In this document: piece after piece, positions 22,531-28,317 of the stretch
Layout of the letters: each line of letters starts with the position of its first letter
Position numbering within the stretch: the stretch's first letter is position 1
Origin: a virus
Strand: one strand, 5' to 3'
DNA length: 34,128 bases
Virus record (IMG/VR): IMGVR_UViG_3300044617_000557
Coordinates: 1 to 34,128 of that record
Position numbers and translations under genes: made by a program
The notes under the pieces: model-generated
What the model saw: only the letters and a program-made list of their open reading frames with translations
Told to the model about the DNA's origin: nothing
Databases searched by the model: none

Positions 22531-24315
22531 ATGGCAAACTTTGCCCGTCCCGGAGTCTATATCCAAGAAGTAGCTCTGCAACAATCTGTACAGCCTGCAA
22601 ACACTGCAAACGCTGTCGGCGCATTTGTTGGAGCTCTTCCTAAAGGTCTTACGACTGCACCAGTACTAGTTAGTACTTGGACAGATTTTGTTAAGGCTTT
22701 TGGTGGATTAAATGACTCATTCCCAACCACTTGGGCTGCCTATAACTTTTTTGCTAATGGCGGCCGAGATCTATATGTAAAGCGTGTAATTGGAGCGTCA
22801 TCTGCTACAGGTTCAGTAGTAATTAACGATGGTCCTGGAAGTACAACTACTACCACAGCTACCGTTACAGCAGCCTCTGCTTCAAGCGGAACTGTTACTT
22901 ACACAGCTACTAATACGTTTTCTGTTGGACAGACAGTATCTATTACCGGTCTTTCAACATCAGCGTTTAACCTATCTAACGTAGAAATTGCGTCTCGTTC
23001 AGGATCACAATTTACCGTTACCAGTGCTGCTACTGGAACTGCTGTTACAGGCGCTTCAGCAACAGCAACTGTTACTGTTACTGTAACTCCAAACCCAGTA
23101 TTTACAGTTACCGCAGTTAACCAAGGAGCATGGTCTACTAGCTACTCAGTAGCTATTACTGCAGGAGGATCTGCTAATCGTTTTGGCCTTGAAGTCTATC
23201 AAATAACTGCTGTTGGTGGATCAACCGCTGTTAACTTAGTAGAGTCTTATAATGATCTAAGCATGGTTTCTACTGACAGAAACTTTGTGCGCTCAGTTAT
23301 TAACTCTAACCCTACATCCGTAATTACAATTGGTACCACAGGATTTGACGCTACTAAGTTCCCAGGTGTAACTGCTACTGCATTAGGAATTACTGGTGGA
23401 GCTGACGGAGCAGCACCAGTACGTACAGATTACGCAGCATCATGGACAACATTTGATTCTGTAGTTAATCCTTTAGTTATGTACGCACCAGATGCACCGT
23501 ATGCTGCAACAGGAACTTTGACTGCAGGAATTCACGGAGATGCGGTATCTTATGCTGCTGGCCGCGACGATGCGTTTGTAGTTGTTGATACTCCTTCTGG
23601 ACTATCAGTTACTGCAGCTCAACAACAAATTACGGCTACTTCAGCTATCTTTGCTGCAAATAACACAGGAAATATTGCGGCAGCGTATTTCCCATGGTAT
23701 AACATTCCAGACCCAACTAAGAGCATCGGCGTAACTCGCCTACAAGCTCCAGGTGCAGGAGTTGTTGGACAATACCTTGCTACTGATGCAAGCCGTGGTC
23801 CAGCCAAGACTCCAGCAGGTTTACAGAATGTTATGGCTCTTGCCGTATCTACTCAACACCTATTTACTAACGCTGAGCTTGACACTATTAACACAAGCGT
23901 AGACCCTATCAATGCTATCCGCCAGGTTCCTGGTGCAGGCATTGTTATCATGGGTGGCCGTACTCTTGATAATACACCAAACAACCGTTATATCAATCTT
24001 CGACGTTCTTTAATTTACATCCGAAAGTCAATGAATGATCTAACATCATTTGCCCTTTTTGAGAACAATGATTCAACTCTTTGGTCTCAAATTAATACAT
24101 CACTAAATAGTTTCCTTCGTAGCTACTGGCAAGCAGGTGGCCTACGTGGAACAAATCCAAGTCAGGCATTTTATGTCTTGTGTGATGCTACTAACAATCC
24201 CTTTACCGAAATTCAAGCCGGTAGAGTTAACATTGAAGTCGGCGTTGCGCTTGAATACCCAGCAGAGTTTGTTGTCATTAAGCTTGGACAACTAACCGGA
24301 AACGCATCAGCGTAA
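22531..24315 (+). CDS. Tail sheath protein
   Basis: 594 residues with SD GAAGGAG. The N-terminus 'FARPGVYIQEVALQQSVQ' and 'VGAFVGALPKG' is the usual sheath start, followed by 'FVKAFGG' and 'AAYNFFANGGRDLYVKRV'. The C-terminal domain has the conserved NRYINLRRSLIYIRKSMNDL and ends INIEVGVALEYPAEFVVIKL. Residues about 108-190 are a Thr/Ser/Ala/Val-rich insertion that contains FSVGQTVSITGLS, related by pattern to the HGFxVGD module of the fibres. It probably projects from the outside of the sheath. The protein polymerises around the tube and contracts during injection. Confidence 0.95.
   Translation: MANFARPGVYIQEVALQQSVQPANTANAVGAFVGALPKGLTTAPVLVSTWTDFVKAFGGLNDSFPTTWAAYNFFANGGRDLYVKRVIGASSATGSVVINDGPGSTTTTTATVTAASASSGTVTYTATNTFSVGQTVSITGLSTSAFNLSNVEIASRSGSQFTVTSAATGTAVTGASATATVTVTVTPNPVFTVTAVNQGAWSTSYSVAITAGGSANRFGLEVYQITAVGGSTAVNLVESYNDLSMVSTDRNFVRSVINSNPTSVITIGTTGFDATKFPGVTATALGITGGADGAAPVRTDYAASWTTFDSVVNPLVMYAPDAPYAATGTLTAGIHGDAVSYAAGRDDAFVVVDTPSGLSVTAAQQQITATSAIFAANNTGNIAAAYFPWYNIPDPTKSIGVTRLQAPGAGVVGQYLATDASRGPAKTPAGLQNVMALAVSTQHLFTNAELDTINTSVDPINAIRQVPGAGIVIMGGRTLDNTPNNRYINLRRSLIYIRKSMNDLTSFALFENNDSTLWSQINTSLNSFLRSYWQAGGLRGTNPSQAFYVLCDATNNPFTEIQAGRVNIEVGVALEYPAEFVVIKLGQLTGNASA
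22870..23090 (+). repeat. HGFxVGD-like module within the tail sheath gene
   Basis: Encodes 'SGTVTYTATNTFSVGQTVSITGLS' in pieces, followed by FNLSNVEIASRSGSQFTVTS. The central FSVGQ-V-I-G, F-L-NV-I and QFTVTS elements match the module order, though more diverged than among the fibres. Confidence 0.5.
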
Positions 24316-24331
24316 AGGAGACAGATAAAAA

Positions 24332-24949
24332 ATGGCCGCATTTCAAAATCCACTAAGTACTCTGATGACGGATCCAGTCCGTAATTTTAGATTCTTAGTC
24401 ACATTTATTCCTACAGACGAGTGGAAAGACACAGCTAAGCCAGCAAAGATGGGGTTTGTTTCTCTATCAGGTCTTAGCGTAACCACAGAACCGATTGCCT
24501 ATCGTGAAGGTGGATACAATACTAACGTCCATCAGATCCCTGGTCAATCTGCATTCACCCCTATTACTCTCTCTAAGGGAGTAATGTTGGGTCAAGACTC
24601 AAACATCAAATGGATGAAGCGTCTGTTTTCAGTTATCACACCTAGTGTTACTAGTGGTGTGGGTGCTGGATTCCGTGCAGACATCGACATTCAGGTTTTG
24701 AGCCATCCAAATCCTCAGGCAAGTACAGGTGCTGCAACCGCTCAGGCTCAGGCAGGAACGGCTTACGATCAGCACACATCACTTCGCTTTAAGGTCTACA
24801 ACGCATGGATCTCATCACTCTCATACAGCAACCTAGATGCAGGAGCTAATACCCTTATGGTAGAAGAAATGTCTCTAGTGCACGAAGGGTTTGACGTAGT
24901 TTACGCAAAAGACTATACACTAGCTAATACCGCTAAAGAAATCAATTAA
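24332..24949 (+). CDS. Tail tube protein (T4 gp19-like)
   Basis: 205 residues, SD AAAGGAGACAG. 'DPVRNFRFLVTFIPTDEW', 'MGFVSLSGLSVTTEPIAYRE', 'GGYNTNVHQIPGQSAFTPIT' and 'LSKGVMLGQDSNIKWMKRLF' are the order of the gp19-like tube family: the F-V-F start, 'V-GL', 'EGG-N---H--PG', 'L-KG'. A Gln/Ala-rich stretch (STGAATAQAQAGTAYDQ) sits in a loop at about residue 135, and the C-terminal 'SYSNLDAGANTLMVEEMSL' completes the fold. It forms the inner channel below the sheath. Length is close to the family norm with a small loop extension. Confidence 0.95.
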   Translation: MAAFQNPLSTLMTDPVRNFRFLVTFIPTDEWKDTAKPAKMGFVSLSGLSVTTEPIAYREGGYNTNVHQIPGQSAFTPITLSKGVMLGQDSNIKWMKRLFSVITPSVTSGVGAGFRADIDIQVLSHPNPQASTGAATAQAQAGTAYDQHTSLRFKVYNAWISSLSYSNLDAGANTLMVEEMSLVHEGFDVVYAKDYTLANTAKEIN

Positions 24950-24969
24950 TTAAAGAATAGGTGAACAAG

Positions 24970-25791
24970 ATGACTACAGATACCGTTATAAATGCGACAC
25001 TCGATCCAGCTTTAGCAAATGACTTAGCTAATAAAGCTATGAAACCTTCTGATCAGGTGGTGGCTAGTAGTGCCCCTAAAGTAACTACTACGCCACCGCC
25101 CGATACAGATGTAGAACTATTGGGTGGACTACTAGATCCAATCAAGGGTTTTATTTCTACAGCAGAGGTTAGAGAATTAACTGGATTAGACGAAGAGATT
25201 ATCTCTAAGATTACAGATCCAGGCAAGGCTCTTTTAACAATCCTTGAAAGAGCAACCGTAAAGATTGGCGACGAACTATCCGATAAAGACACGCTAGACG
25301 CTCTTTATGCAGGTGATCGTGAGCTACTTCTTTTGGCAATTAGAAAAGCTACTTTTGGTTCTGACGTTAAATTAGGACCTGGAGAATGCCCTAGTTGTTC
25401 AGTAGAACAGACGTTTGAAGTAGACTTGACTAGAGATGTGCCCCTTAAGAAACTTGAGGGAGAACACACATTTACTGTTAAGTGTAAGGTTGGAGAAGTT
25501 GTAGTTAGCCTTCCTACAGGAAGCACTCAAAAAGCTATTGTAACTTCTACCAACAAAACCTCAGCAGAATTGGATACAATTCTTCTGAAAAACTGCATTG
25601 AATCTATCAACGGTGCCCCAGTTTTGGGTATGGATGACGTTAGACGACTAAGTCTTAAAGACCGTAGAGATATTCTTGAAGAGATTACAAACCGCAACCC
25701 AGGCCCACAACTCAGTAAAATTAAAATCCCATGTCAGTCTTGCGGCGCGGAGGTACCGCTTCCGCTAACTTTAGCGGAATTGTTTCGTTAA
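24970..25791 (+). CDS. T4 gp26-like baseplate / tail assembly chaperone protein with zinc ribbon
   Basis: ATG 24970 is chosen because AGGTGA lies 5 bases upstream; an in-frame GTG at 24961 is part of that site. 273 residues. An extended N-terminus is followed by 'GFISTAEVRELTGLDEEII', 'DKDTLDALYAGDRELLLLAI' and two CxxC pairs (Cys140/143 in GECPSCS and Cys255/258 in PCQSCGA) that could form a zinc ribbon. This is the T4 gp26-like / tail assembly chaperone family placed between tube and tape measure. The stop TAA (25789-25791) sits in a sequence where the +1 frame is open into a short partner gene, so a longer fused form is possible. Confidence 0.75.
   Translation: MTTDTVINATLDPALANDLANKAMKPSDQVVASSAPKVTTTPPPDTDVELLGGLLDPIKGFISTAEVRELTGLDEEIISKITDPGKALLTILERATVKIGDELSDKDTLDALYAGDRELLLLAIRKATFGSDVKLGPGECPSCSVEQTFEVDLTRDVPLKKLEGEHTFTVKCKVGEVVVSLPTGSTQKAIVTSTNKTSAELDTILLKNCIESINGAPVLGMDDVRRLSLKDRRDILEEITNRNPGPQLSKIKIPCQSCGAEVPLPLTLAELFR
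25783..25791 (+). promoter_or_regulatory. Candidate +1 ribosomal frameshift site
   Basis: The codons TTT CGT TAA end the chaperone gene. A +1 slip of the Phe tRNA from TTT (25783-25785) to TTC (25784-25786) keeps full pairing and moves the ribosome into the frame GTT AAC GAG ATT GAT TAC, which continues to the stop at 25934-25936. The fused product would be about 321 residues. A -2 slip would reach the same frame. Phage tail assembly chaperones are well known for programmed frameshifts at this position upstream of the tape measure. The site is a proposal from sequence only. Confidence 0.4.
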
Positions 25792-25813
25792 CGAGATTGA
25801 TTACGAACTGCTT

Positions 25814-25936
25814 ATGGATATGCAGGACTTATTAGTTCAGAACTATCCAGGGTGGACACTAAACGAGGTACGCAACCTAAGTATTAGAGAGCGTATAAAT
25901 TGGCTAGAAAGAGCTACGGCTAGAATAAGGCGGTGA
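25814..25936 (+). CDS. Short downstream chaperone partner (gp51-like or frameshift extension)
   Basis: Frame open from about 25775 to the TGA at 25934-25936. The first ATG is at 25814, giving 40 residues: MDMQDLLVQNYPGWTLNEVR and 'NLSIRERINWLERATARIRR'. No ribosome binding site lies at a suitable distance before this ATG, while the upstream codons (VNEIDYELL) also look like protein. The 'Y-G-T--EV--L-IRER--WL-R' pattern is that of short hub-assembly (gp51-like) proteins and of C-terminal extensions of tail assembly chaperones. Either it is translated by coupling as a separate protein, or as a +1 frameshift extension of the gene ending at 25791. Confidence 0.6.
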   Translation: MDMQDLLVQNYPGWTLNEVRNLSIRERINWLERATARIRR

Positions 25937-25941
25937 TGTAA

Positions 25942-28317
25942 ATGGCAGGTGCAATCGGAAATATGGAAAACCCTTCCGATGCTCAGTCCACCCCTCTTTC
26001 AGCTATGGGAAGTGACGTTGAGTTTGAAGGCATGCCTAAAGGCTTTATTAAATACTTTAGAGAAGCTAAAAAACTTGTAGATCAAATTGCAGATGAGTGG
26101 AGTAAGGTCCTTAAGGACACTGAAGCTTCTGCAACTAGATTAGGTTCTGACAAACCTGGTTCTGGACGTCTTGGCCTTGGTTCTTTTAGCCGTGCTGAAA
26201 AAGTTGGGATGGGCATTGGCCTAGCAGGTTTTGGTGCCGCTACATATACCGCTGTTGCCCCTAACACTATGGCCGCAGTCACACAACGCATGGGTGCAGA
26301 TACCTATGCTGGCCTTAGCGGCATGTCTTCACGCCAAGCAATTATGCAGGCTAACCGACAAGTAGGTGGCGGAGCAACAAGCGCTATGGGCCCAACCATG
26401 GCTGCAATGAACTTAACCTATCAAGGTGGTTACACAGCTAGCTCACTAAGCTCTAGAAACATTATGTCACAAATTGGTGGCATGAGTGCCATGTCTGGTA
26501 TGAGTAACGAAATGGCTGCTGCAAGTGTGGCAGGGATGAACGGTATGAGTTTCTTACGTGCCGGTGTTCAAATTCGTGATCCTCAAGGCAATCTAAAACC
26601 ACCTAATACAATTATTAATGATGTGTACCGCTTCTTATATCGCGGACAAAAGATTACAAAACAACAAGCTGCTCTCGTAATGAACCCTGGAAGTAAGGGT
26701 TATGCAACTCTTCAGCAGATTACTGGTGGCGACCCTCAGCTAATGCAGATGATTCAATCAGGAATTATTGCACGTGCTAGCGCAGGTAGCGACAGTAAGT
26801 TTAGCTCTGCCATGAATAGCAAAGATCCAAACACAATGCTTAACGTATTGGGTGTAGATAAAAGCTCACCTATTCGTTCTAATTTTAGATTTAATTCTAG
26901 TGAGAATAGAAAACTAGAATCAACTGAAGAAGGTTTAGTTGGCGGGTACAACGTATCTCTTCGCACTACCGCAGCCCTTAACGATGCCTACAGTGTTATG
27001 GCAGATACTCTTGGCCCGGTTAACGATGGCTTAATGACTCTTAAAGGAATTTTACAAACGCTACCTAACGCAGGAAATATGGGCGGAGCTATTGCTGGGT
27101 TTGCAGGTGCACTTGCAGGTCTTGCATCAACCATCATACAAGTAGCTTTAGTAAGCAGATTACTTGGGGGTGCTGGCGTTGCTGGACTTCTTGGTAAGGG
27201 TGCAGGATTAACTGCTGGCCTAGCAACTGCTGGAACTGCGGCAGCTGTAGGTTTAGGTGCTGGCGTTGCAGGGTTTGGAGTTGGTAAAGGTGGAAAAGCT
27301 TTAGGAAATAAACTAGGTACATCTAATACAGTGACTCGTACAGGCAGTACTTTAGCAGGTGCCGGAGCTGGTGCTGCTATTGGAACTATGATTATGCCTG
27401 GTGTTGGAACCGTAGTTGGTTCTGTTCTTGGAGGCCTTGGAGGTTTCTTTGGTTCCGGTGGTCCACATGATCACGGTAATTTAGGCGTTGGTGGCCCTAA
27501 AGAAAATGCTTCTCCAACTCCATATGCTAGTCCTGTTCCAAAAGCAACCCCAATTACTTCTCCATTTGGTCCAAGAGATAATTCTCAGAACCCACAAATT
27601 TCTTCTAACCATAAAGGTATAGACTTTGGTACTCCATCAGGTACAGCTTTAACATCTATCACAGATGGCGTAATTAGTGTTATGGGAAATGAAGCTAAGG
27701 GTTACGGTCGTTGGGTTGAAGTAAAACACGAAGACGGTACAGCATCTCGTTACGCACACTTGTCACAAGTCAATGTTTCTAAGGGACAAAAGGTTGTGCC
27801 AGGACAAGTTATTGGTAGGTCTGGAGGAAAAAAGGGGCAACCAGGTGCAGGTAACTCTACAGGTGCCCACCTTCACTTTGAAATTCTTAATGAGCGTGGG
27901 GTTAAAGTTAATCCAGCACCATACTTAAGCGGTGCTCCTGCGTCTCCTATTAATGGAAGTATGACCGCTTCAGCAGCAGCCGGTCCTAAAGCACACGGAT
28001 CAGATGCAACCTGGTCAGCTAAAAAAGCTACTTCTAAAGCTAAGTTTACCGGCAAAAACGTAAAGCAACTTTCAAGCCCTGCCCTTACTACTTCACTAAG
28101 TACAGCAGGGTATAACGAAGATGTTGGAGGACCTTCAGCCGCAATGAACGTTGGTGTGTCTTCATCATCAGGTAGTTCTAAGAACGTTGTTATTAACTTA
28201 CAAATGAAGGTAAGTATTGCTCAAGGTAGTGTTCAAGAAGCAGATCGTCTAGTAAGATTAGTTGGTAAGAAGCTTACCGATAGTGATGTACTTAAAAAGA
28301 TTGGAAGTGCTCTTTAA
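25942..28317 (+). CDS. Tape measure protein with M23 peptidase domain
   Basis: 791 residues. The N-terminal third is helical and Met/Gly/Ala-rich (GGMSAMSGMSNEMAAASVAG), and residues about 370-510 are strongly hydrophobic (AGFAGALAGLASTIIQVALV and Gly/Ala repeats), as in tape measures that insert into membranes. Residues about 535-660 are an M23 (lysostaphin-type) zinc endopeptidase. They start TPITSPFGPRD, with His557 and Asp561 in HKGIDF, His606 in RYAHLS, and His643/His645 in HLHFEI, so all metal and catalytic positions are present. It sets tail length and on ejection probably cuts peptide cross-links in the host wall. The C-terminus 'NVVINLQMKVSIAQGSVQEA' is the baseplate-binding end. Confidence 0.9.
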   Translation: MAGAIGNMENPSDAQSTPLSAMGSDVEFEGMPKGFIKYFREAKKLVDQIADEWSKVLKDTEASATRLGSDKPGSGRLGLGSFSRAEKVGMGIGLAGFGAATYTAVAPNTMAAVTQRMGADTYAGLSGMSSRQAIMQANRQVGGGATSAMGPTMAAMNLTYQGGYTASSLSSRNIMSQIGGMSAMSGMSNEMAAASVAGMNGMSFLRAGVQIRDPQGNLKPPNTIINDVYRFLYRGQKITKQQAALVMNPGSKGYATLQQITGGDPQLMQMIQSGIIARASAGSDSKFSSAMNSKDPNTMLNVLGVDKSSPIRSNFRFNSSENRKLESTEEGLVGGYNVSLRTTAALNDAYSVMADTLGPVNDGLMTLKGILQTLPNAGNMGGAIAGFAGALAGLASTIIQVALVSRLLGGAGVAGLLGKGAGLTAGLATAGTAAAVGLGAGVAGFGVGKGGKALGNKLGTSNTVTRTGSTLAGAGAGAAIGTMIMPGVGTVVGSVLGGLGGFFGSGGPHDHGNLGVGGPKENASPTPYASPVPKATPITSPFGPRDNSQNPQISSNHKGIDFGTPSGTALTSITDGVISVMGNEAKGYGRWVEVKHEDGTASRYAHLSQVNVSKGQKVVPGQVIGRSGGKKGQPGAGNSTGAHLHFEILNERGVKVNPAPYLSGAPASPINGSMTASAAAGPKAHGSDATWSAKKATSKAKFTGKNVKQLSSPALTTSLSTAGYNEDVGGPSAAMNVGVSSSSGSSKNVVINLQMKVSIAQGSVQEADRLVRLVGKKLTDSDVLKKIGSAL

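Follow-up and report, generated by a model that had tools for sequence, protein, structure and literature searches.

Does the gp26-like chaperone gene of the virus record IMGVR_UViG_3300044617_000557 end at its own stop codon, or are some ribosomes carried past that stop into an overlapping frame? The record (34,128 bases, analysed at full length and called the window here) contains a tail module with a contractile tail, in which the chaperone gene ends TTG TTT CGT TAA while the +1 frame stays open across the stop. A sequence-only reading had proposed a programmed +1 frameshift here. With a probability of roughly 0.93, the locus encodes two tail assembly chaperone (TAC) products of a contractile-tailed phage, TAC-N and the longer TAC-NC, via +1 slippage on UUU_C. 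This rests on the comparison made here, in which the slip site and the +1 frame are conserved and many relatives lack a usable start codon, and on gene position, protein family and fold resemblance. We infer the direction of the slip in vivo, the product ratio and the function in assembly. Overall the frameshift interpretation is strongly supported, and none of the refutation tests that were run gave a contrary result. The features of the junction are as follows.

24970 to 25791, plus strand: TAC-N, the zero-frame gp26-like tail assembly chaperone, 273 amino acids (PF12322, phrog_150, AlphaFold2 model)
25783 to 25786, plus strand: slip site UUU_C, where P-site Phe UUU would re-pair to UUC (+1)
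25789 to 25791, plus strand: zero-frame stop codon TAA
25787 to 25936, plus strand: +1-frame extension, 49 amino acids after Phe272 plus stop; probable GpE/E'-like C-terminal domain of TAC-NC
24970 to 25785 joined to 25787 to 25936, plus strand: TAC-NC, predicted fused product of 321 amino acids, with TTTC read as Phe (F272 at the junction)
25814 to 25816, plus strand: first ATG of the +1 frame, not conserved, without a ribosome binding site, not a gene start

The sequence-only reading described this junction accurately: TTT CGT TAA occupies 25783-25791, the recomputed borders of the open +1 frame agree with its approximate ones, and the sizes of 273 residues unshifted and 321 for the putative fused product hold when TTTC is read as one Phe. 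An alternative GTG start for the chaperone gene is possible at 24961. In the +1 frame, stop codons at 25766 and 25772 (TAG) precede an open stretch that runs from 25775 to a stop codon at 25934-25936. Given the stop at 25772 and the zero-frame stop at 25789-25791, the shift is confined to 25775-25791. The interval holds the codons GAA, TTG, TTT and CGT, and good re-pairing in the +1 position is available to TTT only (TTT to TTC), as had been suggested for the Phe tRNA. There is only one in-frame TTTC in the chaperone gene, and it is the one at the junction.

Most ribosomes would thus read TTT CGT and stop at TAA to give TAC-N. In some, the P-site tRNA-Phe (anticodon GAA) would slip from UUU to UUC; reading would then continue in the +1 frame as GUU AAC GAG and onwards, giving TAC-NC with its small P2 E'-like domain. 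Such a slip would be favoured because this tRNA pairs better with UUC than with UUU. The same slip of tRNA-Phe on UUU_CGU has been argued for influenza PA-X, a proven site (PMC3498833), and a 2016 review describes UUU_Ynn as slipping +1 in bacteria with no adjacent stop codon required (PMC5009743). TTT-C followed by CGT is therefore not the unusual variant that the sequence-only reading took it to be.

Cultured phages gave no match when searched with the window at the DNA level, and a protein-level search was needed. Its cultured matches are all Streptomyces phages (BRock, Alone3, LuckySocke, GiJojo and pSt2308), together with one metagenomic jumbo phage. Later searches added Bacillus phage SP-15, Listeria phage LIS04, a Streptococcus phage, Microcystis and Flavobacterium phages and hundreds of viral contigs, as well as the bacterial genomes Streptomyces, Saccharothrix and Terracoccus. 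In the Streptomyces phages examined, the chaperone frame ends CTG TTT CGC GAA CTC TAA/TGA (with CAG for CGC in Alone3) and the +1 frame entered from TTT leads into the same domain; the locus is annotated as two genes or as one, with a frameshift in none. The unshifted BRock chain ends ...NVGILFREL, the predicted shifted chain reads ...NVGILFANSNYK, and slippage on UUU would give the tryptic peptide YDQVTAACHACEGEVPVPLNVGILFANSNYK.

Three frames were scored with a profile of the C-terminal domain at 353 loci. The domain is strongly in the +1 frame in 214 of these and strongly in the -1 frame in none. The 214 loci span uncultured viral contigs, Streptomyces phages and GC-rich prophages, and form 92 clusters at 90% identity, 36 at 60% and 12 at 45%. 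Within the overlap, every one of them (214/214) has a zero-frame TTT with C or T as the next base, so that TTT-Y is present in each relative with a clear C-terminal domain. Measured against the genes' own use of Phe codons, TTT at the slip position has a log10 P of about -25, with the 60% clusters treated as independent. Elsewhere in these genes only 9 of 211 TTT codons are followed by C, compared with 23.7% for any codon.

Beyond the reach of the domain profile, TTT-Y is found in 75/75 sequences of the jumbo/Flavobacterium/Microcystis type and 21/26 of the SP-15 type, counting those with an open +1 frame. The +1 frame extends at least 90 nucleotides beyond the stop in 73/76 window-type, 75/76 jumbo/Flavobacterium-type, 26/27 SP-15-type and 65/65 Streptomyces-type sequences; the corresponding counts for the -1 frame are 2, 24, 2 and 2. 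The slip position is fixed at a conserved Leu-Phe, and the zero-frame tail after TTT runs from 0 to several codons (TAA; CGC TAA; CGG GAG TGA; CGC GAA CTC TAA). Because the zero-frame codons after TTT differ in both length and identity, it is TTT-Y that selection retains. The A-site codon is mostly CGN, and CAG, CTC, TGG and TAA also occur.

The same picture holds at close range. Among viral contigs, 53 loci of 66-96% identity were found, 52 of which cover the junction. All 52 have TTTC, then CGY (once CTC), a TAA or TAG stop and an open +1 frame, which encodes F-[VAS]-[NS]-E-x-[DN]-Y...YPGW[TS]L...RER..W. Residues F1, Y7, Y21, W24, L26 and R35-E36-R37 of the +1 domain are invariant in 26 relatives. 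Between the slip site and the ATG at 25814, entropy is 0.66, 0.52 and 1.04 at +1 codon positions 1, 2 and 3, which is third-position variability of the coding type. Together with the invariant Tyr at +1 codon 7, this bears out the suggestion that the residues before the ATG are those of a normal protein and that the +1 frame is conserved there.

The alternatives to +1 slippage on UUU differ in how the second frame would be reached. The +1 frame might be a small gene in its own right, whose translation begins at ATG 25814 or some non-standard codon through translational coupling with the chaperone stop; public records of BRock, Alone3, GiJojo and SP-15 annotate it so, and a TAATG overlap in one distant jumbo phage (L065) fits a separate start. 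In the window, however, no Shine-Dalgarno-like sequence precedes this ATG, in line with the sequence-only reading, and the ATG itself is not conserved: its counterpart is GTA, ATA or ACG in L014, L020, L021, L035-L038 and L041-L050. Upstream of the domain's conserved Trp, 41 of the 92 lineages lack ATG, GTG and TTG altogether. The stretch ahead of the ATG has conserved residues and varies as coding sequence does, and a separate gene gives no reason for the retention of TTT-Y; we regard it as very unlikely. Of the short C-terminal partner that had been proposed, the joining by a +1 shift therefore stands; the separate short gene gives way to a C-terminal domain of the chaperone, probably of the P2 E' kind. 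A one-base sequencing error, or decay that split one gene into two frames, would agree with the continuous frame that the two parts form in some Streptomyces-class genomes. It is refuted by recurrence, since hundreds of independently sampled contigs and several cultured phages have the break at this very codon; its probability is negligible.

Two further alternatives keep the frameshift and change its course. A -2 shift, as in phage Mu, reaches the same frame with a product one residue longer, and TTTTTT in 70 of 75 jumbo/Flavobacterium-type relatives allows -2 re-pairing. In the window, however, it would put the Phe-tRNA on UGU, a mismatch, and the window-type and Streptomyces-type sites are nearly always UUU_C, which favours +1; we consider a -2 shift about as improbable as a separate gene. 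A prfB-type slip, in which the P site would hold CGT and the A site TAA, is a shade less probable still. A stop in the A site is a usual stimulus, and of 84 distinct relatives in the first set 48 have their stop as the second codon beyond TTT; but re-pairing of CGU to GUU is poor, and elsewhere the stop directly follows TTT or lies several codons away, with intervening codons that differ. Slippage on UUU itself departs from prfB-type sites in that CGT stands between the slip codon and the stop; only L100 and L101 have TTT TAA.

Several points weigh against +1 slippage on UUU_C as the explanation of the locus. For every member, the shift is a prediction from sequence. The relatives are not independent, so probabilities calculated over them are merely indicative, and those with TTT TTT could reach the same frame by a -2 shift. 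The A-site codon CGT or CGC is not obviously slow to decode. The extension domain scores under the Pfam GpE cut-off, and the modelled match to the HK97 chaperone has a Foldseek E of 0.25 and a Z below 8.

By family the chaperone is a T4 gp26 relative: it matches PF12322 (T4_baseplate) with E 6.6e-12 and 46 bits, above the curated cut-off of 24.5, which upholds the gp26-like label given to it from the sequence. PF12322 is matched by 34/34 aligned relatives, and the chaperone also matches phrog_150 (baseplate hub) with E 7.4e-12. No match to a solved structure was found by sequence. The AlphaFold2 model, made of the unshifted protein only, has a pLDDT (predicted local distance difference test score) of 86.7. 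Its top PDB match is the HK97 tail assembly chaperone (Foldseek probability 0.93, E 0.25); VIA-align to this chaperone gives Z 7.0 over 94/104 residues at a root mean square deviation of 4.8, and the next match has Z 3.7.

The extension matches the P2 E' profile with an hhalign E of 2.4e-4. Against PF06528 (Phage_P2_GpE) it reaches E 3.9e-4 and 20.3 bits, under the curated cut-off of 23, and it is therefore not filed as a GpE member, though a relation to P2 E' is likely on profile similarity.

The genes on either side of the chaperone are consistent with this role:

22531 to 24315, plus strand: tail sheath (phrog_23, E 4.7e-45; PF17482, E 7.8e-9)
24332 to 24949, plus strand: tail tube, gp19-like, upstream neighbour (PF06841, E 4.8e-23)
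25942 to 28317, plus strand: tape-measure-like protein with M23 peptidase, downstream neighbour (PF01551, E 7.2e-26; phrog_167 tail length tape measure, E 1.5e-19)

The order is sheath, tube, TAC, tape measure, and the chaperone locus at 24970-25936 sits between the tube and tape-measure-like genes, where a TAC is expected. Its overlapping second frame is conserved, has no start to itself and connects to the first at a conserved slip site, the layout that marks such chaperones. Gene order, the HK97 fold match and the likeness to P2 E' make a TAC-N/TAC-NC pair the best reading of the locus. If the two forms act as lambda G/GT and P2 E/E+E' do, TAC-N would coat the tape measure protein, and tail tube subunits would be brought in by the extra domain of TAC-NC. 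Binding partners, product ratio and absence from virions would likewise follow lambda and P2.

Three elements lie upstream of the slip site:

25749 to 25754, plus strand: internal Shine-Dalgarno-like GGAGGT, 28 nucleotides before the slip codon, exact in 24/24 window-type lineages
25760 to 25779, plus strand: RNA hairpin ending one codon before the slip codon (-11 kcal/mol, z -4.5)
25774 to 25779, plus strand: GCGGAA, weak anti-Shine-Dalgarno complementarity 3 nucleotides before the slip codon, a prfB-like position

Shine-Dalgarno-like elements and hairpins beside the E site reportedly stimulate +1 shifting on 70S ribosomes (PMC6321510), and the hairpin is a possible stimulator here. Its pairs are kept in most, not all, window-type relatives, with no compensatory changes. 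As a general element it was rejected: the pairs break uncompensated in part of the window-type group, and the hairpin is absent in the other groups. Downstream RNA structure in the window is not notable (z -1.15). Anti-Shine-Dalgarno complementarity before the slip site averages -3.87 kcal/mol in the window-type group versus -0.96 in synonymous re-encodings; the mean rank among re-encodings is 0.11 in this group versus 0.47 in the Streptomyces type, which has no enrichment. The GCGGAR element is confined to the window-type group and was likewise set aside as a general stimulator.

GGAGGT has no start codon at Shine-Dalgarno distance. The residue whose codon gives its first G varies (Gln, Ser, Thr, Val or Ala). 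GAGGT is kept in 42/51 of the Streptomyces-type group, and the remaining two groups have a weaker enrichment at about the same place. Tentatively, and with doubt, these elements could form a composite 5' stimulator: GGAGGT at a fixed 28 nucleotides plus a hairpin or Shine-Dalgarno-like element by the E-site codon, with the 16S rRNA tail tethering the elongating ribosome across the loop and so promoting +1 movement. If this were true, a distal Shine-Dalgarno sequence acting at 28 nucleotides would be a new kind of frameshift stimulator.

Some relatives are arranged differently. In several Streptomyces-class genomes the two parts are in one continuous frame, and the tail matches the +1 domain (hhalign E 8e-6); because this gene is uninterrupted, the fused product is a natural one. 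The Streptomyces-class genomes L155-L161 have a gp26-like part and a GpE-like tail in one frame, and are possibly contractile injection systems. Agrobacterium phage Atu_ph07 (L066, near 3200) has T_TTT_TTC and a -1 frame open into a similar-looking tail domain, making it a candidate -1 version of the arrangement. In a GC-rich Streptomyces-class genome (L153, reverse complement about 2160-2190), the gp26-like gene carries T_TTT_TTA, a sequence uncommon in DNA of this kind. Its C-terminal domain is DUF6760-like (E 9.5e-6) and lies in the -1 frame. In Streptomyces, TTA is the bldA codon and is rare. Three SP-15-type contigs (L263, L267 and L268) have no TTT-Y and a +1 frame that is still open; CCC_A (CCC AGT) is a possible alternative +1 site in them.

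Annotated hypothetical proteins start inside the +1 extension, after conserved residues, in BRock (L055, 3848-4030), Alone3 (L056, 3758-3913) and SP-15 (L063, 3249-3368). These annotated starts are likely to be wrong.

Frameshifted tail chaperones are classic; +1 versions are rare. P2 E/E+E' is similar in its position between tube and tape measure, in belonging to a contractile phage and in its extension domain. P2 shifts -1 at T_TTT_TTG according to its record annotation, in contrast to +1 at UUU_C here, and its E protein has 91 amino acids, compared with the 273-residue, gp26-like (PF12322) N-terminal part with two CxxC pairs. E' is itself the frameshift extension of the P2 tail chaperone (PMC3091744). 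The HK97 chaperone, a TAC like lambda G/GT, is the best PDB match of the model; the shifts of lambda, HK97 and other TACs are mostly -1, and no sequence match to them was detected.

The gp26 and gp51 chaperones of T4 belong to the same Pfam family, PF12322, and differ in that a frameshift is present here. The chaperones of T4-like phages are reportedly made by a mechanism other than frameshifting, going by the title of Vladimirov et al. 2022 (Virology 566:9), which PMC12846349 cites. The 2016 review calls the frameshift conserved in long-tailed phages 'except T4' and names as its +1 case the haloarchaeal myovirus HSTV-2, in which a +1 TAC shift is thought very likely (PMC5009743). Influenza A PA-X (UCC_UUU_CGU) has UUU_CGU and the P-site Phe slip to UUC in common with the present site; it differs in its eukaryotic ribosomes, its unrelated gene and its E-site UCC, where the present E-site codons are mostly Leu (UUG, CUG, CUA) (PMC3498833).

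By description, HSTV-2 and Listeria phage PSA are alike in having +1 shifts in structural or assembly genes of tailed viruses, though PSA uses proline codons and other genes. The PSA shifts are in capsid and tail genes. No report of a frameshift in the present gp26-like branch was found in the literature searched, of which coverage was partial. Frameshifted TACs as such are known; the proposed +1 frameshift in this branch is, within that coverage, new, and is unannotated in the public records examined.

T4-type phages are the stated exception to TAC frameshifting, and a large branch of the same family shows one, which is +1 and not the usual -1. The branch spans uncultured phages, Streptomyces prophages, Bacillus phage SP-15 and jumbo phages. 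Bacterial UUU_Y sites, which were predicted as a class from influenza PA-X, thereby become available in large natural numbers for dissecting how the codons around them and elements upstream affect forward slippage. Annotation is corrected too: the short 'hypothetical proteins' that follow these gp26-like genes are C-terminal domains of the chaperone, often without a start codon of their own.
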